Assembly (NCBI RefSeq): GCF_001591405.1
Contig: NZ_BCUV01000007.1
Coordinates: forward strand, 310,001 to 374,000
DNA from: Janibacter terrae NBRC 107853
Lineage (GTDB): Bacteria; Actinomycetota; Actinomycetes; Actinomycetales; Dermatophilaceae
Direction of reading: 5' to 3'
DNA length: 64,000 nt
The notes under the pieces are model-generated. The model was not told the origin of the DNA, searched no databases, and saw only the letters and a list, made by a program, of their open reading frames with translations. Every line of letters starts with the position of its first letter. Within the stretch, counting starts at the first letter, position 1. Below, piece after piece: positions 2,281-11,764 of the stretch. Made by a program: the position numbers and the translations under genes.

Positions 2281-2506
2281 ATGACCCCACCCCGCAACGA
2301 CCGCACGATGCTGCCGCTCGCCGGCGGGCACCGCGACGGCGGCCGCTCGGCCGCCACGTGCACCTGGAAGTGCGGGGACGCCTGCAGCCAGCCGGTCCCC
2401 AACTCCACGGACAACGCGTACTTCGGCGACGTCGTCGCCGCGTCGCGTCGCTCCGTCCTCAAGGCGGGCGGTGCCACCGCGGCCGTCGTGGGCCTGACGA
2501 CCGTCG
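2281..2506 (+). pseudogene. phoX: PhoX-family alkaline phosphatase, N-terminal fragment (gene split by mobile element)
   Basis: This holds the start of a Tat-exported PhoX (DUF839, PF05787) phosphatase. The reading frame from ATG 2281 encodes an N-terminus with a conserved WKCGDAC segment and the twin-arginine motif SRRSVLKAGG, then a hydrophobic stretch. The frame is broken at 2507 by a 7.4-kb insertion and stops at 2527-2529 inside the element, giving an 82-residue product with no catalytic domain. Joining base 2506 to base 9933 restores one uninterrupted 685-codon ORF with the signal peptide continuing through AATSFAQPAAAA. The ribosome-binding site is strong. PhoX enzymes release phosphate from phosphoesters outside the membrane and use Ca/Fe cofactors; that function should be lost while the element is present. 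Confidence 0.92.
2502..2506. repeat. Left copy of 5-bp target-site duplication CGTCG
   Basis: CGTCG directly precedes the TGTCCGG end of the element and is repeated at 9928-9932 directly after the CCGGACA end. A 5-bp duplication is usual for TnsB/Mu-type and many IS21-like transposases. Confidence 0.85.
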
Positions 2507-2588
2507 TGTCCGGTCACCATCGAATCTGATCACGCAGTCACCCTCAGGTGAGGAATCTGATCACAACCCGACCGAGGAATCTGATCAC
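2507..2588 (+). repeat. Left transposon end: terminal inverted repeat plus three internal motif copies
   Basis: The end begins TGTCCGG and carries AATCTGATCAC at 2523-2533, 2554-2564 and 2578-2588; the latter two are preceded by GAGG. Start-to-start spacing is 31 and 24 bp. They are in inverted orientation to the motifs at the right end and look like transposase-binding sites. Confidence 0.8.
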
Positions 2589-2818
2589 TCCCTACTGCAA
2601 GCAAGGTCACCGCGGCACTTGCGCGAACAGGCCCGTACAGGCACCAGCGCACAGCAGGCCCCAGACCAGCGATGTCGCCTGTGACTACCGACTGTCACCT
2701 ATCCGTGCAGCAGTGCCGCCGACAGCAAGCCAAGGCTTCTAGCGGCACTCGGCGTCGCCTCTGTGACCGGCCCGGCAGGCTCAGCACCTGAGGTCAACGG
2801 GTCCGGCGGTTGGGTACG
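2530..2818. other. Gene-free left flank of the element
   Basis: Beyond the end repeats (to 2588) I see no ORF with a credible start or family resemblance before the rhodanese stop codon at 2819. No transposase fragment is recognisable in either strand. Confidence 0.5.
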
Positions 2819-3421
2819 TCAGGTCGCCGTTGGTGCGTACGAGCTCTGCAACTGTGCAAAGACCGTCTCAAGGTCGGGCACGTTGCGGCGGTTGTAGGGG
2901 AGCTTGGACAGGAGCATCCCCATGGCGCAAGTGTCGGTCAGGGCTGCGGCGGTCAGCCCAGCGCCGATGCCGGCCGAGATCCACTTGGCCTGGGGCACGA
3001 GGGTGCTCACGAGGACTCCGGTGAGCACGATCGAGCCGGCCACGAGTCGCACCTGTCGCTCGAGGTCCCACGTCCCATCGCCGCGGATGACGTCGCCGCC
3101 GGCGCTCTCCCAGGCGGTGATGCCACCGTCGAGGACGTGCAGGTTGGGCAGGCCGGCCGAGGCGAGGGCGCTCTCGGCGCGGCAGGCGCGGGCTCCGGAG
3201 CGACAGACGAGGACGACGTCGTCGTCAAGGTGCTCGGCCAGTTCGCGGCGGTGCTCCTCGAGGAGGTCCAGGGGCACGTTGTAGGAGCCGGGGATGTGCA
3301 TGCCGGCGAACTCGCCGGGGGTGCGCACATCGATGATGCGCGCGTCGTTGGTGCTGGCAATCCACTCGCGCACCTGCGCGGAGTCGAGGGTGGCAGGTCG
3401 GGGGGTGGTGTCGGTGGTCAA
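2819..3421 (-). CDS. Rhodanese-like sulfurtransferase with C-terminal DUF2892 membrane domain
   Basis: A 200-aa protein with an N-terminal rhodanese domain (about 10-110) whose active loop CRSGARA places the catalytic Cys at 73, followed by two hydrophobic segments (about 128-175) of the DUF2892 type, as in E. coli YgaP. It likely carries sulfane sulfur as a Cys persulfide at the inner face of the membrane. The start is a TTG at 3421, chosen because AAAGGA lies 6 bases upstream and the alternative starts would remove the rhodanese core. It is the last gene of a minus-strand set with tauE, a small Cys-rich protein and cstB, all inside the mobile element; the substrate is inferred from those neighbours. 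Confidence 0.88.
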   Translation of the reverse strand: MTTDTTPRPATLDSAQVREWIASTNDARIIDVRTPGEFAGMHIPGSYNVPLDLLEEHRRELAEHLDDDVVLVCRSGARACRAESALASAGLPNLHVLDGGITAWESAGGDVIRGDGTWDLERQVRLVAGSIVLTGVLVSTLVPQAKWISAGIGAGLTAAALTDTCAMGMLLSKLPYNRRNVPDLETVFAQLQSSYAPTAT

Positions 3422-3457
3422 GGGGGGTCCTTTTCGTTCGGTGTGAATGCGTTCGGG

Positions 3458-4267
3458 TCAGGCCAGGAGAGCTGGCACGGCCTGTGCGGCCGTGAAGGCG
3501 GCGATGGCCAGCACGAGGACCGCGAAGGCCTGCGAGAGTCGTTCTGCCGGGAGTCGGTCGGCGACGCGGCTGCCGACGAGGCTGCCGATGACGGCAACTG
3601 TGGCGAAGCCGAGGATGAGGGGCCAGTCCAGTTCGCCGACCCCCTGCTGCGCCCGTGCAGCCAGCGCTGTGCCGCTGTTGATGGCGATGACGAGCAGGGA
3701 GGTACCGACTGCCACGGGCATCGTGAATCCGAGGACGAGTACGAGGGCGGGGACGAGCACGAAGCCGCCACCGACACCGAGGAACCCGGTCAGCAGTCCG
3801 ACGAGGGTGGCAGCGACGACGAGCTTGAGCAGGCGCGGGCAGACGCAGGTCAGGGGGTGGAGGGTGAGGATCGGCTCGTGGGGTCCGGTGTCGTCACTCT
3901 GCAGTGATCCGCTGCGGCTGCGCCGCAGCATCAAGACGGCCACGACGACCATGAGCACGGCGAAGACGGTCATAAGGACCTCTCCGGGCACGGCTCGAGA
4001 GGCGGCTGACCCAGCGAAGGAGCCGGCCGTGCCCAGCAACCCGAAGGTCATGCCCTGTCCAAAGCTCACCCGCTGCGCACGGTGATGCGCGGGCAACGAG
4101 AGGAGGGAGGTGATGCCCACGATGATCAGCGAGCTGGTCGTGGCGGTGACCGGGTCCTGCCCCAAGACGTGCACGAGGGCGGGTACGGCGAGGATGGACC
4201 CTCCGCCGCCCAAGGCACCGAGGGCGATGCCGATGACCAGGCCTAGTGGGATGACAGCAAGGGGCAC
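3458..4267 (-). CDS. TauE/SafE family sulfite (or sulfur-anion) exporter
   Basis: A 269-aa polytopic membrane protein with the DUF81/TauE pattern: an N-terminal glycine-rich turn GIALGALGGGGSILAVPALV and a second half-repeat GLLTGFLGVGGGFVLVPALV near residue 155, the two-fold repeat typical of the family. TauE/SafE members export sulfite, sulfoacetate or related anions. Next to a CstB-like enzyme, which yields sulfite or thiosulfate from persulfides, export of those products is the natural inference. The GTG start at 4267 is supported by AGGAG 7 bases upstream. It lies between the rhodanese (36-bp gap) and the small Cys-rich gene, in the same orientation. Confidence 0.88.
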   Translation of the reverse strand: MPLAVIPLGLVIGIALGALGGGGSILAVPALVHVLGQDPVTATTSSLIIVGITSLLSLPAHHRAQRVSFGQGMTFGLLGTAGSFAGSAASRAVPGEVLMTVFAVLMVVVAVLMLRRSRSGSLQSDDTGPHEPILTLHPLTCVCPRLLKLVVAATLVGLLTGFLGVGGGFVLVPALVLVLGFTMPVAVGTSLLVIAINSGTALAARAQQGVGELDWPLILGFATVAVIGSLVGSRVADRLPAERLSQAFAVLVLAIAAFTAAQAVPALLA

Positions 4268-4348
4268 GATGGGCTCCTAGTGGAGTTGATGGGTGAGTCC
4301 TGCGGGGGCGCAGAATCAGGGGCCTCCCCCCGCCGGACTCCAGGCGGC

Positions 4349-4528
4349 TCAGCCGCGCCCGAAGAGCCGGGCGAGCGGGCTGCGGGAGGCGCCGCCCCCC
4401 TTCGTCGGGGTGGAGTGACCGGGGCAGCGCTTGCTGCCGGGCACCCCCTTCATCACCTGGTCGACGTGCTGGCCGCAACCGGCCCAGGTGGTCTTGCCGC
4501 ATTGACGGCAGGTCGCTTGACGGCACAT
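4349..4528 (-). CDS. Small cysteine-rich protein (59 aa), zinc-ribbon-like
   Basis: A 59-residue ORF beginning MCRQATCRQCGKTTWAGCGQ, with six cysteines (2, 7, 10, 18, 35 and one more by pattern to be checked) and a conserved-looking GCGQHVDQVMKGVP block, ending in a basic tail. The ATG at 4528 has a good AAGGAG site 8 bases upstream. It sits 30 bp downstream of cstB and 81 bp upstream of tauE, within the same minus-strand group. I recall similar short CxxCGKxTWxGCGxH proteins in actinobacteria without an assigned role; zinc binding or sulfur/metal handling is only a guess. Real coding is supported by the ribosome-binding site, the Cys pattern and operon fit. Confidence 0.75.
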   Translation of the reverse strand: MCRQATCRQCGKTTWAGCGQHVDQVMKGVPGSKRCPGHSTPTKGGGASRSPLARLFGRG

Positions 4529-4558
4529 TGGGTCTCCTTGGAGTGGGGTGACGGTGGG

Positions 4559-5935
4559 TCAGTTGGAGGAGGTCATCGGCAGGCCGGCATCGCCGGCGTT
4601 GCCGAAGGCGTCGTCGACGAGGACAACCTGGTGGTCGTGCGCCGCGAGGACCGACGCGGCGATCGAGGCCCGGTAGCCGCTGCCGCAGTGGATCCACAGC
4701 TCGCGCTGCGGGATCTCCTCGATGCGCTCGAGCAGTTCGCCGATCGGGACGTTCTGCGCACCCTCGATGTGGCTGTTCTCGTACTCGCCAGCGAGGCGGA
4801 CGTCGAGGATGTGCACGGGGCGGTGGTGACGCACCTGGGACAGGTCGGCGAAGGCGGCCGTCTCCAAGGTGCCGAGTGGACGGTCGGTCCAGTCCTTGGG
4901 TCCACCGGTAGCTGCGCCGGCAATCCGGTCCAGACCGATGCGCACCATCTCGCGTTGGGCCTGCGCGACCTGCTCGGAGCTCTCACCGAGCAGGGTGACC
5001 TGGGCATCCCAGGGGATGAGCCACCCGAGATAGGTGGAGAACTGACCGTCGAGGCCAAAGTTCAGCGTCCCGGTGGCGTGACCGGCCGCGAACGCGGTGC
5101 GGGTGCGCAGGTCGATGACCCACTCGCCGGCGTCGATGCGCTCCGCGAGGGTGTCCTTGTCGGCCTGCTCGGGGGTGCTCAGGTCGGCCTCGTTCGGTCC
5201 GGCAGCGTTGGCTGGGGACATGTGGACGTAGTAGGCCGGGTAGGCATCCAGGCCGGCAAGGGTGTCGGCGACCCACTGCTCCTGGTCCTGGGTGAGCACG
5301 GGGTTGTTGCGCTTCTCCTGACCGATGGTCGATTCGGTGGAGCCACCGGTTGACCCGGAGGAGCAGAAGGATCCGAAACCGTGCGTCGGCATCACCTCGG
5401 CGTGCTCGGGCAGCTCGTCTGCCAGTCGGTGGATCGAGGCGAACTGGTGGCGCACGAGGGCGCCCGTGTGCTCCTGGCCGAGCAGGTCCGGTCGCCCCGT
5501 GGCACCGAAGAGCAGCGAGCCCCCGGTGAAAACGGCCGAGGCCGTGGCACCGGAGTCGGTGACCGTCTCCATCGCATAGGACAGGTGGGTGAAGGTGTGG
5601 CCCGGGGTCGCGATGGCACGCACGCGCATCGTCGGGGAGATCTCGACGACGTCCCCGTCGCGAATGGACTGACGGTCGAAGGAGACCTCGTCCTCAGCGT
5701 TGACGTGGTACCGCGCGCCGAGGCGGCGGGCGAGGGCCAGGCCCCCGGTCACGTAGTCGTTGTGGAGGTGGGTCTCGAAGACGTCGGTGATTCGCACGCC
5801 GGCCTCCTCGGCGACCGCGAGCACACGGTCGATGTCTCGCTGTGGGTCGACGACGAAGGCGACGTCGCCGTCGTGGGCGAGGTAGGAACGGTCGCCCAGG
5901 CTCGGGGTCTCGATGGTCATGATCGTGGGTTCCAT
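4559..5935 (-). CDS. cstB: CstB-like persulfide dioxygenase-rhodanese fusion
   Basis: About 458 aa. The N-terminal metallo-beta-lactamase domain of the persulfide dioxygenase type has the iron-binding motif THLHNDYV (about 55-62) and GHTFTHLSY. A middle rhodanese-homology segment (about 255-330) has no Cys, and a C-terminal active rhodanese has IHCGSGYRAS with Cys near 417. This order is that of staphylococcal CstB, which oxidises (per)thiol sulfur in the cytoplasm to sulfite/thiosulfate. The ATG at 5935 is preferred; a TTG at 5944 and an ATG at 5920 are alternatives. The perfect CsoR/CstR-type operator at 5948-5965 lies 13 bp upstream, and the cstR gene is divergent, so persulfide-induced derepression is expected. 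Confidence 0.9.
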   Translation of the reverse strand: MEPTIMTIETPSLGDRSYLAHDGDVAFVVDPQRDIDRVLAVAEEAGVRITDVFETHLHNDYVTGGLALARRLGARYHVNAEDEVSFDRQSIRDGDVVEISPTMRVRAIATPGHTFTHLSYAMETVTDSGATASAVFTGGSLLFGATGRPDLLGQEHTGALVRHQFASIHRLADELPEHAEVMPTHGFGSFCSSGSTGGSTESTIGQEKRNNPVLTQDQEQWVADTLAGLDAYPAYYVHMSPANAAGPNEADLSTPEQADKDTLAERIDAGEWVIDLRTRTAFAAGHATGTLNFGLDGQFSTYLGWLIPWDAQVTLLGESSEQVAQAQREMVRIGLDRIAGAATGGPKDWTDRPLGTLETAAFADLSQVRHHRPVHILDVRLAGEYENSHIEGAQNVPIGELLERIEEIPQRELWIHCGSGYRASIAASVLAAHDHQVVLVDDAFGNAGDAGLPMTSSN

Positions 5936-5941
5936 GGGTGA

Positions 5942-6418
<477 letters not shown>

Positions 6419-6438
6419 CCGCCCCACGACGCATGTCC

Positions 6439-6945
6439 CTACGTGCACACGGAGGGAAATCGGGGACAGGAGCGTTCGCGGCGGACGCGGACGACGAATG
6501 CCCACGCCAGCAGCACGATGGCCACGGCGGCGAGCAGCGGCTGCACCGGCGCAAAGTACTGCATTGCTCCGGAGTAGCCCAGGGCGATGAGGACGAGCTT
6601 GTTGCACACCGGGCATCCGACGGCGAAGAAGGTCGTGAATGCCCCGAGCATGCCCAGTCGTGAGCCGCGTTCGCCCTCGTCGCGCACATCACGCCGGGCA
6701 ACGTATGTCGCAGCGACCAGCCCGGCCAGGGTCGAGGTCATCATCAGCACGGGCCACGCCCACGCAGTAGTGGGGACCTCCCGGCTGAACACCGGGCTGG
6801 GGATCATCGCGGTCGGGATCGCGGTCGCGACCACTGTCAGCACCGCGACCCCGACGACGGTCCACCATCGGCGTGACTGCCACGTCCGCAACTCAGCGAT
6901 CAAGAACGGTTGTCCCCGCTCCGGTGACTCGATGAGGGTCTTCAC
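6439..6945 (-). CDS. Four-helix membrane protein with a CPVC motif, part of a DsbA/CcdA set
   Basis: A 168-aa protein with about four hydrophobic segments (near 27-48, 62-83, 97-120, 128-152) and a CPVC pair at Cys111/Cys114 in FFAVGCPVCNK at the start of the third/fourth helix region; two further cysteines lie at the C-terminus. I do not recognise a named family. The GTG start at 6945 has AAGGAG 7 bases upstream; the upstream open frame overlapping ccdA is ignored. It begins one base after the ccdA-like stop, so it is co-transcribed with ccdA and dsbA. A thiol-redox partner or membrane electron carrier for the DsbA-like protein is plausible but inferred only from the Cys pair and context. 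Confidence 0.72.
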   Translation of the reverse strand: MKTLIESPERGQPFLIAELRTWQSRRWWTVVGVAVLTVVATAIPTAMIPSPVFSREVPTTAWAWPVLMMTSTLAGLVAATYVARRDVRDEGERGSRLGMLGAFTTFFAVGCPVCNKLVLIALGYSGAMQYFAPVQPLLAAVAIVLLAWAFVVRVRRERSCPRFPSVCT

Positions 6946-6946
6946 A

Positions 6947-7825
6947 TCAGTTCTCCTTGCGCACGAAGTCAGAAGTCGAAGGGGTTGACCCTGAGGCGGA
7001 CGCCCTCGACTGTCGCTTCTCGCTCTGATTGCGCCAGAGTAGAGCCCCTGCGAGGACGACAGCCGCAGCAAGGACGAACCAGACGTCGGACACGCCCGAG
7101 CTCCAGACGCTGAGCGCCGACTCCGCCGAGCGTTGGGTGCCGATGGTGAACACGCCACTGAGGCTGGCGGTGCCATCGGTGAGGATGAGCACAACGCCAA
7201 TGCCGATCGACAACACCCCGGAGACGAGCATGGCCCAGGTGTTGCGCCAAGGCCCGATCGAGACCTCCTTGGGGGCGACGAACGCCCGTCCGCGAGCACC
7301 CAGACGCTTCCAGACCGCCGCGAGCACGAAGAGCGGGACGGTCATGCCCAGCGAGTAGAGAGCGAGCATGGAACCCCCGTAGACGGGGTTGCCGCTCACA
7401 GCGGCCACCATGAGCACTGACCCGAGGATCGGGCCGGCACACACACCGGCGACCGCGTATACGGAGCCGAGGGCGAAGACTGAACCGATGGAGGTGCGGT
7501 CACTGCTACCGCCGTGCTGCGTGCGGGACACGCCGGGCACCGGCAGCCCCGAGAGCTGCCACAGGCCCAGGACGATGACCACTCCCGCGGCGACCGTCAC
7601 CATGAGTGAGCGATGGGTCGTCACGAGGGATCCGAGCGACCCGGAGAAAACCCCCAGCGGAACGAGGGTGATGCTCAGGCCTGCGTAGAACACCAGCGTG
7701 CGACCGATGAGTGCGCTCGGCGAGGTGAAGGCGTAGGCAAAGAAGGCCGGAAGCAGCATGACCGAGCATGGGCTGAGAAGCGTGAGAACGCCACCGAGGA
7801 AGGCGCCGGTGTACCCGATGTCCAT
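6947..7825 (-). CDS. CcdA/DsbD-beta-like transmembrane thiol reductase
   Basis: A 292-aa polytopic protein with the CcdA pattern: LLSPCSVMLLPAFF with Cys20 in the first helix and VAGVCAGPILGS with Cys129 in the fourth, the two cysteines that pass electrons from cytoplasmic thioredoxin to extracytoplasmic thiol proteins. The C-terminal ~50 residues are a polar tail. It overlaps the dsbA stop by one base (TGATG at 7823-7827) and is followed after one base by the CPVC membrane gene, so the three form a tight operon. It differs from the housekeeping ccdA at 48221-49000, so the element carries its own copy, presumably dedicated to this DsbA. Confidence 0.85.
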   Translation of the reverse strand: MDIGYTGAFLGGVLTLLSPCSVMLLPAFFAYAFTSPSALIGRTLVFYAGLSITLVPLGVFSGSLGSLVTTHRSLMVTVAAGVVIVLGLWQLSGLPVPGVSRTQHGGSSDRTSIGSVFALGSVYAVAGVCAGPILGSVLMVAAVSGNPVYGGSMLALYSLGMTVPLFVLAAVWKRLGARGRAFVAPKEVSIGPWRNTWAMLVSGVLSIGIGVVLILTDGTASLSGVFTIGTQRSAESALSVWSSGVSDVWFVLAAAVVLAGALLWRNQSEKRQSRASASGSTPSTSDFVRKEN

Positions 7826-8562
7826 CAGCTGTCCTCCAGAGCCTCGAGCTGCTCGTCAATGGCCTGCTGGAAGGCCTCGGTCGGCTGCGCGCCAACGATG
7901 AGGTCCTGGCCGATCAGGAAGGTCGGGGTCCCTGTTGCGCCTACCTGGCGGGCTTCCTGGGTGTCGGCATCGACCTTGGCGCGCAGCTCGGGGCTGTCCA
8001 GGTCCTTCTCGAACTGCTCTAGGTCCGGAACGCCGATCTCATTGGCCCAGTCCATGATCTTTTTGTCGGTGATCTTCAGGTGGCCACGCTCGGGGGCGTC
8101 CTGGTACATCGCATCGTGGTACTCCCAGTACAGGTCCTGCTCACCGGCAGCCCGTGCGGCCATCGCCCCGTCTTCCGACTCTGGGCCGAAGACGGGAAAG
8201 TCCCGCCACTCGAAGCGCAACTTGCCGGTGTCGATGTACTGCGCTTTCAGCTTCGGGAAGGTGTCACGAGCGAAGGCCCCGCAGAAGGGGCACCGGTAAT
8301 CGGAGTACTCGATGAGCACGAGGTCGGCGTCCTTGTCCCCTATCGCCGTGACGGTGTCAGCGTCCCGTCGAGCCAACCCGACCCGTTCCTCAGCCTCGCG
8401 CGGATCGGCGATCGCCTGGCTCGGCGCCCCCTTCTGCGAGGAATTTTGCCCGACAGTCGGTCTACCTCCCTCGTCCTGGCTGGCAAACACCACCCCGGCG
8501 ATGAGGACGAGGATGATGGCAATGCCTGCGACGATGGTCGCCCGGCGGCGCGTGTCGTTCAT
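7825..8562 (-). CDS. Membrane-anchored DsbA-family thioredoxin-like oxidoreductase
   Basis: A 245-aa protein with an N-terminal membrane anchor (about 9-27), a linker, and a DsbA-type fold with active site CPFC (Cys91/Cys94) after IEYSDYR, an inserted helical domain, and the cis-proline loop GTPTFLIG near residue 213. It acts outside the membrane to form, isomerise or reduce disulfides, or handle persulfides. It is the first gene of the minus-strand trio with ccdA-like and CPVC genes and is divergent from the GntR regulator; the operator-like palindrome at 8580-8593 lies in the 45-bp gap, so control by that regulator is likely. Confidence 0.87.
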   Translation of the reverse strand: MNDTRRRATIVAGIAIILVLIAGVVFASQDEGGRPTVGQNSSQKGAPSQAIADPREAEERVGLARRDADTVTAIGDKDADLVLIEYSDYRCPFCGAFARDTFPKLKAQYIDTGKLRFEWRDFPVFGPESEDGAMAARAAGEQDLYWEYHDAMYQDAPERGHLKITDKKIMDWANEIGVPDLEQFEKDLDSPELRAKVDADTQEARQVGATGTPTFLIGQDLIVGAQPTEAFQQAIDEQLEALEDS

Positions 8563-8579
8563 GACCCCGACCGTAGCCT

Positions 8580-8593
8580 AATGTCTATACATT
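8580..8593. promoter_or_regulatory. GntR/HutC-type operator candidate between dsbA-like gene and gntR
   Basis: AATGTCTATACATT matches its own complement at 12 of 14 positions and has the GT-N-TATACA core of HutC-subfamily GntR operators. It sits between divergent starts at 8562 and 8608, consistent with autoregulation and control of the dsbA operon. Confidence 0.6.
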
Positions 8594-8607
8594 TCCTAGG
8601 AGTGGGT

Positions 8608-9366
8608 GTGCACACACTTCCGCGGTGGCGACAGATCAGCGATGACCTGATGCGCAGGGTTCAGGGCGGCGAGTTCGTCGACGGGTTTCCGGGCGAGTTG
8701 TCGCTGACCACGGAATACGGCGTCAGCCGCGGCACCATCCGCCGCGCACTTGAACCCCTGCGCGAGCGAGGGGTCGTCGGTGGGGCCCGAGGACGGCAGT
8801 CCTATGTCATCAATGCCAGCCGCACCAGCGGGCTCGGACCCATGTACAGCCTGCGAGAGGCCATAACGGCCAACGGCACCTCTGAGCGCTCGGAGGTGCT
8901 GGCCCAGCGGGTCGTGACCAGCGAAGTGGTCGCCCGCGCACTGGGCCTCGAAGCGGACACCCCCTTCGTGCACATCACAAGGGTGCGCTTCGTCGACGAC
9001 GATCCCATCGCCTTCGACCGGCTGTGGATCATCGCCTCGGTGGCGGCGCCCCTCTTGGACGCGGACCTGACCGAGACGTCCGTGTACAAGTCACTTCGAT
9101 CCCGCTGCGGCGTGGAATTCGATGCCGGCGTGGAGCACACGCGCTCAGTGGGAGCGACCGGCGAGGTCGCCTCACGTCTGGGTGTCCCCGAGGGCACTGC
9201 ACTGCTGACGATCCGGCGAAAATCCTGCCTCAATGGCCGACCGGCGGAACTGCGCGACACCTGTGCCGTCGGCGAGCGAGTCACTCTCACCCACGTCTTC
9301 GGCGACGCATCCGCGGTCCTCAACTGCGGCGGCAACGGACGCCCGGTAGAGATCCCTTGGGAATGA
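8608..9366 (+). CDS. GntR-family (HutC subfamily, UTRA domain) transcription regulator
   Basis: A 252-aa regulator with an N-terminal winged helix (about 5-70; SRGTIRRALEPLRERGVV) and a C-terminal UTRA effector-binding domain (about 85-245; LRLEADTPFVHITRVR-like, DRLWI, LTIRRKSC). The GTG at 8608 is chosen because TAGGAG lies 5-6 bases upstream; an ATG at 8581 in the same frame overlaps the palindromic operator and lacks a ribosome-binding site. The stop overlaps the STAS gene start (ATGA at 9363-9366), so they are coupled. The ligand is unknown. It is inside the mobile element and divergent from the dsbA trio. Confidence 0.85.
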   Translation: MHTLPRWRQISDDLMRRVQGGEFVDGFPGELSLTTEYGVSRGTIRRALEPLRERGVVGGARGRQSYVINASRTSGLGPMYSLREAITANGTSERSEVLAQRVVTSEVVARALGLEADTPFVHITRVRFVDDDPIAFDRLWIIASVAAPLLDADLTETSVYKSLRSRCGVEFDAGVEHTRSVGATGEVASRLGVPEGTALLTIRRKSCLNGRPAELRDTCAVGERVTLTHVFGDASAVLNCGGNGRPVEIPWE

Positions 9367-9683
9367 CCAGAACCGCACGGATCGTTGACACCGACGTCGA
9401 CGGTGACGGGGAGCCCGATGTGCGGGTCTGCAAGGTCACGGGCGAGCTCTTCTTCGCCACCAGCAACGACCTCGTCTACCAGTTCGACTACGCCGCCGAC
9501 CCTGCCCGGGTCGTCATCGACCTCACCGACAGTCACATCTGGGATGCCTCGACTGTTGCCGCCCTGGACGGAGTGCAGGCCAAGTACGAACGTCTGGGCA
9601 AGAGCGTCGAGATCGTCGGGCTCAACCAGGCATCTGCTGAGCGTCGCGAGCTCGTGACTGGGCGGCTGGGCGACAGTCACTGA
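9363..9683 (+). CDS. STAS-domain protein resembling the C-terminus of SulP transporters
   Basis: A 106-aa protein that is almost entirely one STAS domain: VCKVTGELFFATSNDL, then VVIDLTDSHIWDASTVAALD and VEIVGLN. These phrases are characteristic of the cytoplasmic STAS tail of SulP anion permeases rather than of anti-anti-sigma factors, but no permease part precedes it; the gntR gene ends right before it with a 4-base overlap. It may be a freestanding regulator or a remnant of a sulP gene captured by fusion next to gntR. Its role is not known; with a sulfur-related cargo, an anion-transport connection is tempting but unproven. Confidence 0.75.
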   Translation: MTRTARIVDTDVDGDGEPDVRVCKVTGELFFATSNDLVYQFDYAADPARVVIDLTDSHIWDASTVAALDGVQAKYERLGKSVEIVGLNQASAERRELVTGRLGDSH

Positions 9684-9809
9684 ACGTCCGCTGACGGGAG
9701 GTCCTCACGCGGCGAGGAAGGGTCACGAGCGCCGGGTCGTCAGAACGACCGCACGATGGGTGCCTCAGCCTGTCAGGGGTGGCTCGGCCACTCGGTGGGG
9801 AAGTGGAAT
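9684..9809. other. Gene-free right flank of the element
   Basis: No credible ORF or transposase remnant between the STAS stop and the end repeats beginning at 9810. Confidence 0.5.
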
Positions 9810-9927
9810 TGATCAGATTCCTCGTTCAGATTGATCAAAGTCTTCGTTCACCAGTGACCTTTGATCACGATGATCAAATTCCTCGTTCAAAACGGGCCGA
9901 ATGATCAGAATCGGTAGTTCCCGGACA
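9810..9927 (-). repeat. Right transposon end: four motif copies and terminal inverted repeat
   Basis: Copies of TGATCARATTCCTCGTTCA occur at 9810-9828, 9832-9850 (two differences) and 9871-9889, with a shortened TGATCAGAATC at 9902-9912 next to the terminal CCGGACA (9921-9927). They are inverted relative to the left-end copies. A small palindrome (TTTGATCACGATGATCAAA) overlaps the third copy. Confidence 0.82.
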
Positions 9928-9932
9928 CGTCG
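9928..9932. repeat. Right copy of 5-bp target-site duplication CGTCG
   Basis: Identical to 2502-2506 and adjacent to the CCGGACA end of the element. Confidence 0.85.
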
Positions 9933-11764
9933 CCGCGACCTCGTTCGCCCAGCCCGCCGCTGCCGCCACCGCCGCCCGGACCGGCAAGAAGGCGCCCTTC
10001 GGCTTCGAGCCGATCGACGCGGTCCCCGCGGGTGTCGACGAGGTCGTCGTCCCGGAGGGCTTCCAGTGGGCCCCGATCATCGCGTGGGGTGACCCCATCC
10101 TCAAGGGCGCCCCGGCCTTCGACTTCGACCACCAGACCGCCGCCGCCCAGGCCGGCCAGATGGGCTACAACTGCGACTACGTCGGGGTCCTGCGCCACGG
10201 CAGCGCCAACCGGGCCGTCCTCGTCGTCAACAACGAGTACACCAACAACGAGCTGATGTTCGCCGGCTACACCAGCGCCGAAGCACTCACCGACGACCAG
10301 GTCGGCATCACCCTCAACGCCCACGGCATGACGGTCGTCGAGATCACCCGCAAGAACCCCAACAGCAAGTGGACGTACACCCAGGGTGCTCCGCTCAACC
10401 GCCGCATCACGGCCCAGACGCCGTTCACCTTCGCCGGCCCCGTCCGCGGCCACGACCTCGTCAAGACCTCGGCCGACCCCGCCGGCACGACGCCGCTGGG
10501 CACCTTCGGCAACTGCGCCGGGGGCACGACGCCGTGGGGCACCGTCCTGTCCGGCGAGGAGAACTTCAACTTCTACTTCACCCAGCCGGCCGCCCCGAGC
10601 GACGACCGCGCCGGTCGCGCCGCCGCCCGCTACGGCCTCGCCAGCGGCAACCGGGCCCAGCACGACTGGGACCGGCTCGACCCGCGTTTCGACCTCACGC
10701 GTGAGCCCAACGAGGCCAACCGCCACGGCTGGATCGTCGAGGTCGACCCCTTCGACGCGTCGAGCACCCCGCGCAAGCTGACCGCGCTGGGCCGCTTCAA
10801 GCACGAGGGCGCCAATGTCACGGTCGCGGGTGACGGCCGCGTCGTCGTCTACATGGGTGACGACGAGCGCTTCGACTACATGTACAAGTTCGTCTCCTCG
10901 AGGACCTACGTCGAGGGCGATGCTGCGGGCAACCACGCCCTCCTGGACGAGGGTGACCTCTACGTCGCCAAGTTCAACGGCAACGGCTCGGTCGACGGGA
11001 TCCACGACGGCGACGGCGAGTGGCTGCCGCTCGTCGTCGACGGCCGGTCCGCCGTCGACGGGTTCACCCTCGAGGAGGTCCTCGTCCACACCCGCCTGGC
11101 GGCCGACGCGGTCAGCCCGACCAAGATGGACCGCCCCGAGGACGTCGAGGTCAACCCCGTCAACGGCCGCGTCTACGCCGCGCTCACCAACAACTCCAGG
11201 CGCGCCCCCGCGCAGGTCGACGAGGTGAACCCCCGGGCCAACAACAAGCACGGTCAGGTCCTCGAGATCACGCCCCGGGGTGGCGACCACACCGTGGCCG
11301 GCTTCGACTGGAAGCTCGTCCTCGTCTGCGGTGACCCGAGCGACCCGCAGACGTACTTCAACGGCTACGACAAGTCCGAGGTCAGCGCCATCTCGTGCCC
11401 GGACAACGTGGCCTTCGACGGCGAGGGCAACCTGTGGATCGCGACCGACGGCAACGCCCTCGGCAGCTGCGACGGCATGTACCTCATGCCGCTCGAGGGC
11501 GAGCACAAGGGGCACCTGCAGCAGTTCCTCTCCGTCCCCGCCTTCTCCGAGTGCTGCGGCCCGCTCATCGAGTGGGACGAGCGGGTCGTCTTCGCCGCGG
11601 TCCAGCACCCGGGCGAGGACGACGGCGCCTCGACGACCAACGTCAAGAGCACCTTCCCCTACCGGGGCAACACCCAGCCGCGCCCCGCGGTCATCATGAT
11701 CTGGCCGCAGAGCCCCTCCGCGGGCAAGGGCACCGCGAAGGCCGCCCGGTCCACGAAGGCCTGA
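9933..11764 (+). pseudogene. phoX: PhoX-family alkaline phosphatase, C-terminal fragment
   Basis: The remaining ~610 codons of the split phoX gene. The frame is open from the insertion point, covering the end of the Tat signal peptide (TSFAQPAAAA) and the whole DUF839/PhoX catalytic beta-propeller. Typical family phrases are WGDPIL, YNCDYVGVL, VVNNEYTNNELMF, NCAGGTTPWGTVLSGEEN, GWIVEVDPFD, MDRPEDVEVNP, NNKHGQVLEI and CGPLIEWDERVVFAAVQHPGE. No start codon with a ribosome-binding site exists at its 5' end, and the first internal ATG is at 10160, beyond the export signal, so a working exported enzyme is not expected. No other lesion is visible, which suggests a recent or reversible insertion. 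A 17-bp hairpin at 11780-11814 ends the gene. Confidence 0.92.

Follow-up and report, generated by a model that had tools for sequence, protein, structure and literature searches.

Positions 2507–9927 of the DNA studied here, a 64,000-nt stretch of Janibacter terrae NBRC 107853 (contig NZ_BCUV01000007.1, positions 310,001–374,000, forward strand; hereafter ‘the window’), constitute a 7.4-kb transposon inserted in the phosphatase gene phoX. The element is very probably a non-autonomous Tn7-like transposon, and we consider it fairly likely that it was already devoid of tns genes on arrival and was moved in trans. We assign it to the Tn7-like elements because its ends match those of an element that encodes TnsA, TnsB and TniQ in the congener G801, and we name it a non-autonomous derivative rather than an autonomous member because no TnsB or TnsC was found inside it; TnsA and TniQ were not found there either. 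The study is a sequence comparison throughout, and the end sites discussed below are candidates by sequence. The genome containing the window (G000; 3.58 Mb in 11 contigs, with an assembly 99.99% complete, in which a lost plasmid would be invisible) was compared by search with sets of 16 genus, 186 family, 396 order and 197 or 394 class genomes. Compared genomes are referred to by labels such as G801, G798 and G286, the first two being congeners of G000.

The element starts with TGTCCGG at 2507 and stops with CCGGACA at 9927, 21 of the 26 terminal bases being identical, and thus has TGT...ACA termini with subterminal arrays of candidate transposase sites. The ends and the interrupted gene are laid out as follows:

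2281..2506, plus strand: 5′ part of the interrupted phoX, with start codon ATG at 2281 and an open joined frame
2502..2506, unstranded: left copy of the target-site duplication CGTCG, from the sequence
2507..2587, plus strand: left end, with the TGTCCGG terminus and three candidate TnsB sites (2519–2532, 2550–2563 and 2574–2587)
9810..9927, minus strand: right end, with the CCGGACA terminus and four candidate TnsB sites (9902–9915, 9871–9884, 9832–9845 and 9810–9823)
9928..9932, unstranded: right copy of the target-site duplication CGTCG, from the sequence
9933..11764, plus strand: 3′ part of phoX, open to the stop codon (PF05787, E = 6e-138 for 10160–11764)

An additional, weak candidate site lies inverted at 9854–9867 in the right end. 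The repeat TGATCARATTCCTCGTTCA, with up to three mismatches allowed, occurs four times in the window, all within the two ends, as against none in 100 shuffles, and in the whole of G000 it is found only at the element ends. When the element and one CGTCG are removed, the flanks join as an open phoX frame. The 3′ phoX flank found a match in 12 of the 16 genus genomes, G000 included (four had none at E ≤ 1e-10), and the joined phoX sequence aligns over the junction in one block, with small gaps, at 10 of the 11 congener loci (L175–L185); at the eleventh, L185, the alignment begins past the junction and is uninformative, and two further 64-bp flank matches (L186 and L187) were excluded from the locus count. 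The pair of flank matches obtained in G286 has an overlap of exactly 5 bp. An earlier first-pass annotation, made by a model from the sequence alone, had proposed the termini with their 21/26 identity, the CGTCG duplication, the clustered end repeats and the disruption of phoX, and all four are borne out. The still-open phoX frame and the presence of the end sites suggest that the insertion is rather recent.

When the right end was searched by BLAST against the 186 family genomes, 47 gave a match at E ≤ 1, and only two matches besides G000 itself were strong, both within the genus: G801 (E = 3e-33, 86% identity) and G798 (E = 6e-30, 84%), the next best standing at E = 0.13. Both identities extend over about 118 bp and include 26 of 26 terminal bases. 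In G801 this right end belongs to a 26,206-bp element (C1:72738–98943) with a left-type end and the flanking direct repeat CCTACC, which carries tnsA, tnsB, a candidate tnsC, tniQ1, tniQ2, a STAND NTPase gene, a further large ORF and other cargo. Its TnsB has residues D293, D402 and E438, which we read as the DDE triad and which are invariant in six sequences; the TniQ pair matches PF06527 (E = 5e-17 and 4e-10); and the ORF taken as TnsC has homologues of 35–51% identity at the same place in five relatives. The 1385-aa STAND NTPase, a 519-aa ORF and a TIR-domain protein of this element (L117/L137) are possibly defence cargo.

The second strong match, in G798, belongs to a 2,853-bp element (C9:134851–137703) without tns genes, flanked by the duplication ACCGA and carrying aldo/keto reductase and Abi_C genes. 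Its left terminus is identical to that of the G801 element (26/26 bases), and 20 of the 26 terminal bases are common to the G801 and window left ends. The Abi_C gene starts about 72 bp inside the left end (L118:4851–7703), in a stretch that lacks two of the three usual sites. By blastn, the window element shares only its ends with the G801 and G798 elements. The targets differ as well: the phoX coding sequence in the window, a position near an ORF start in G798 (judged by eye) and one 9 bp past an ATPase ORF in G801. G286 has a further left end, which over 83 bp shares 83% identity with that of the window element and is followed by MerR and SulP genes up to the end of the contig.

The ends appear to share a common arrangement of candidate TnsB sites. 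Matches to GAGGAATCTGATCA (at least 9 of 14 positions) lie at offsets 13, 44 and 68 in the left ends of the window, G286 and G801 elements (G798 has only the one at 13), and at offsets 13, 44, 83 and 105 in the right ends of the window, G801 and G798 elements, although these right ends, 84–86% identical, are not independent for such a comparison. At the stricter level of at least 11 of 14, the eight ends hold 16 matches, where shuffled sets average 0.06 each, a control that flatters, given that GAGGAATCTGATCA was derived from the same ends and that nothing but base composition was preserved in shuffling; the equal offsets are the stronger point. Tn7 itself has three left and four right TnsB sites, according to PMC8649781, and the window element is like Tn7 in its arrays of three left and four right candidate sites, in its 5-bp duplication and in having, in G801, a relative with tnsA, tnsB, a candidate tnsC and tniQ. 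It is unlike Tn7-like transposons in that no tns gene was found inside it. Outside these genomes, G034 has a TnsB 55% identical to that of G801, the same tnsA-B-C-tniQ order and a right-type end in which the terminus is conserved and the core altered (19/26).

The first-pass annotation had placed the element in the TnsB/MuA/IstA class and proposed looking for its end arrays beside istA- or tnsB-like genes. The DDE class, multi-site ends and 5-bp duplication hold; the search led to the G801 tns element with its matching ends and to none of the 30 IS21 loci fetched, which narrows the class to TnsB and leaves IstA without support. That the element is instead of the IS21 type (IstA/IstB), or a passenger derivative of one, is hardly credible. 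The ends of IS21 elements carry repeats too and G000 has IS21-type genes, but among the best 30 loci of an NF033546 search in 197 class genomes (which reached E ≤ 0.001 in 126 genomes and passed the cut-off in 38), fetched with flanks of up to 1,500 bases, none has the same end repeats, judged as three TGATCA within 150 bp; a looser two-hit test was positive at three of the 30, each time with one TGATCA counted twice. The resident IS21-like locus likewise lacks the array, and the proteins encoded by the G801 element, whose ends do match, include TnsA, TnsB and TniQ. At C10:24857–26869 of G000 (L031), an IS21-type istA is apparently split in two frames beside an open istB.

We regard as highly unlikely, too, that the element derives from the resident Tn5053/Tn402-like element of G000 (tniA-like ORF at C7:406328–408085) and was moved by TniABQ. 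TniA and TnsB are related, 5-bp duplications and multi-site ends are traits of both, and a helper would be at hand in the same genome (its genes named by eye), but no TGATCA cluster lies near that locus, the window element has neither tni genes nor a resolvase gene (Pfam, 20 ORFs; res sites not searched), and its ends match the TnsA-bearing G801 element instead. Neither the resident Tn5053-like nor the IS21-like locus has matching ends. The former (L035, C7:403394–408085) comprises tniA-tniB-tniQ and a resolvase gene by eye, with a weak PF00665 match, near a mercuric-reductase-like ORF (409168–410568).

In wider scans, the exact repeat pattern had two matches in genome_contigs and six in viral_contigs, none with three TGATCA within 150 bp; the repeat scan of the order was positive in 11 of 396 genomes, ten of them other than G000 and with one site each; and three TGATCA occurred in at least 133 of the 394 class genomes, the matches listed being judged unrelated by eye. 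A search of plasmids with the right end gave three weak Pantoea gene matches, and two further plasmid and phage right-end searches gave none. The terminal pattern was found in 6 of 396 order genomes, of which G000 and G286 were kept and G285, G005, G319 and G250 were judged chance matches, as no second site follows; its one match in viral_contigs was also judged chance, even though no more than 69 bases follow it in the stored stretch.

Between the ends, the element contains ten annotated genes and one solo repeat:

2693..2718, unstranded: single, unpaired match (24/26 bases) to an inverted repeat belonging to a resident insertion sequence (IS)
2819..3421, minus strand: rhodanese with a YgaP-like membrane domain (Pfam PF00581, PF11127)
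3458..4267, minus strand: TauE/SafE sulfite exporter family protein (Pfam PF01925, E = 7e-48)
4349..4528, minus strand: 59-aa ORF, no family match
4559..5944, minus strand: MBL-fold/rhodanese fusion, persulfide-dioxygenase-rhodanese-like (PF00581, PF00753)
6152..6418, plus strand: CsoR-family repressor (PF02583, E = 4e-22)
6439..6945, minus strand: 168-aa protein with a weak MerT-like match (NCBIfam, E = 3.5e-4, far below cut-off; no Pfam match)
6947..7825, minus strand: CcdA/DsbD-like transmembrane protein (PF02683)
7825..8562, minus strand: DsbA/thioredoxin-like protein (PF13462, PF01323)
8581..9366, plus strand: GntR/UTRA regulator (PF07702, PF00392)
9363..9683, plus strand: STAS-domain fragment, the 3′ end of a SulP permease gene (nucleotide match to the G286 SulP gene)

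Pfam scans of the ten annotated genes and ten other ORFs (not every ORF of the element) found no transposase, recombinase or transposition ATPase, and tblastn with the Tns and TniQ proteins of G801 and G286 found no tns remnant (best E = 0.009 over 38 aa). This agrees with the transposase-less interior seen in the first-pass annotation; its count of ten cargo genes stands as ten annotated ORFs, of which the STAS ORF is the SulP 3′ fragment and the 59-aa ORF is without a family. Positions 9378–9429 are 98% identical over 52 nt to the G286 SulP gene, the match running to the end of that contig; SulP-type models match the STAS ORF through their C-terminal part, and plasmid SulP genes are 70–80% identical. 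The solo repeat is 92% identical over 26 bp to the IS at C7:414363, presumably IS481-like, and 92% over 25 bp to the copy at C10:109493.

We found no support for the annotation’s suggestion that a mobilising relative lies elsewhere in the genome: at E ≤ 1e-5 a search with the G801 TnsB gave nothing in G000 (five of seven first-look candidates scored) and matches in 43 of the 186 family genomes, and the G286 TnsB finds only a TniA-like protein in G000 (E = 1.5e-4, 25% identity). The G798 genome has only a TnsB of 27% identity (E = 1e-10). On the basis of these searches in G000 and G798, neither of the two complete tns-less elements appears to have a close TnsB in its own genome. The annotation’s broader statement, a transposase-less cargo transposon either moved in trans or decayed, holds in its first part, and two histories remain for the second: either an earlier cell provided the proteins that moved it in trans, or the tns genes were lost afterwards. 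We regard as rather unlikely that a full Tn7-like element entered phoX with its tns genes, which were then deleted or replaced by the sulfur module. The lack of a close TnsB in the host, the truncated SulP and the solo IS repeat, which sits some 190 bp in from the left terminus and could be the trace of a deletion caused by an IS, accord with such a loss in situ. Against it stand the presence of all seven main end sites, the perfect duplication, the open phoX frame, the lack of any tns remnant in our searches, and G798 with a second tns-less element that has matching termini and its own duplication. The end sites, the duplication and the open phoX lean towards movement in trans.

Besides loss in situ, several observations weigh against a Tn7-like element mobilised in trans. 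There is no sign of current transposition activity, because the 26-bp terminus (up to three mismatches allowed) occurs in 3 of the 16 genus genomes with a single exact copy each. The flanking repeat in G801 is 6 bp long, not 5 bp as in the window (CGTCG) and G798 (ACCGA). The model matches of the G801 proteins are weak: TnsA matches NF033179 (TnsA_like_Actin) at E = 3e-24 and 85.5 bits, below the model cut-off of 110; TnsB scores 22.1 bits with Mu-transpos_C, just above the cut-off of 21.7, with rve below cut-off and PDB TnsB chains at E = 0.003; and the candidate TnsC matches no Pfam family. Because a contig end truncates the G286 element, that element could still prove to have tns genes or to be without a right end, and the left end of the G798 element keeps one of three sites. 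The search of G034 yielded no left end, and its tniQ frames look broken. Finally, no such end was found in the fetched stretches, some of them cut by contig ends, of G810, G822, G832, G831 and G789, whose TnsB proteins are 40–54% identical to that of G801 (one weak G831 line was judged chance). It is therefore G801 and, with less weight, G034 that support the pairing of these ends with a TnsB.

G286 carries a second Tn7-like cluster (C49:8110–15226, L129/L130) 0.7 kb from its left end, with TnsB, TnsC (TniB, PF05621), one TniQ-matching ORF and, by eye, a second TniQ and TnsA. Its TnsB is 24% identical to that of G801 (E = 1e-19; 23–28% across comparisons). We rejected this cluster as the helper: apart from the low TnsB identity, a different two-copy 17-base repeat lies upstream of its tnsA-like ORF, and no such end turned up in the 18 kb read for a relative in G803 (79%). 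We take the adjacency to be, presumably, a separate insertion.

From the shared ends and the cargo we infer the following course for the window element. In an older MerR-SulP element, as in G286, a persulfide/thiol-redox module would have taken the place of the interior, an exchange that would have left the SulP 3′ fragment beside the right end. Transposition proteins would have been supplied in trans by an autonomous sister element, no longer detectable in G000. A G801-type TnsB would bind the seven sites, three in the left end and four in the right, TnsA and TnsB would cut the element free, in what is presumably a cut-and-paste mode, and TnsC with a TniQ protein would choose the target, the element inserting in phoX and leaving the 5-bp duplication. 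More tentatively, the genus may harbour a set of tns-less cargo cassettes with a common end code and swapped interiors, served by a few autonomous masters such as that of G801. The interiors of such cassettes could be the SulP gene, the persulfide module and the abortive-infection gene, in a possible parallel to class 1 integrons riding on Tn402 functions.

The closest family is that of the Tn7-like transposons, and the closest working analogue is provided by the tni-defective Tn402/Tn5053 derivatives, class 1 integrons included. Like the window element, these derivatives (class 1 integrons, Tn6606 and Tn6607) have wholly or partly lost their transposition genes, several keep the ends and 5-bp repeats, the cargo is retained, and movement is in trans; for In0 and In2, which keep tniA, PMC7765201 describes a trans-movement experiment. 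In contrast to the window element, Tn402/Tn5053 elements are TniABQ res-site hunters with 25-bp repeats, whereas the window element has ends like those of a Tn7-like element with TnsA, carries a sulfur module as cargo and, in our searches of the genome, has no close helper. The survey of Tn7-like elements in PMC8649781 scanned outward from tnsB, so that tns-less elements would be missed; tnsB-based surveys of Tn7-like cargo cannot see elements without tnsB, and matching ends to a tns-bearing relative is a way to find them. According to the same source, no member of its actinobacteria-dominated clade had been characterised by experiment; the ends compared here supply exact candidate TnsB sites for one Tn7-like group from actinobacteria. 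With the SulP fragment still in place, the idea that cargo was replaced between unchanged ends can be put to a direct test.

The cargo genes probably handle reactive sulfur. The first five, from the rhodanese-YgaP gene to the CsoR-family repressor gene, seem to resemble a cst-type persulfide module. Such operons comprise an MBL-rhodanese, a rhodanese, TauE and a CsoR-family repressor; here, in contrast, the module, which probably serves sulfur handling, is carried between Tn7-like ends. The literature searched holds no tns-less Tn7-like element with a cst-type module, which is not proof of absence. The MBL-fold/rhodanese product matches PDB entries 3tp9 (E = 1e-56), 3r2u (3e-47), BpPRF 5ve3 (5e-15) and ETHE1 4chl (1e-7). 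The repressor keeps the Cys pair and has Gly at the position of the CsoR metal-site His, a residue pattern that suggests a CstR-like protein; its top PDB match is 7mq1, deposited as copper-sensing CsoR, and its NCBIfam RicR and FrmR matches are below cut-off. Among plasmids, 184 records match the element partially and none covers 80% of it. Four genes on the Arthrobacter plasmid pLDW-10 are arranged much like those for the 168-aa protein, CcdA, thioredoxin and GntR, and parts of both cargo modules are present on a Rhodococcus antarcticus plasmid.

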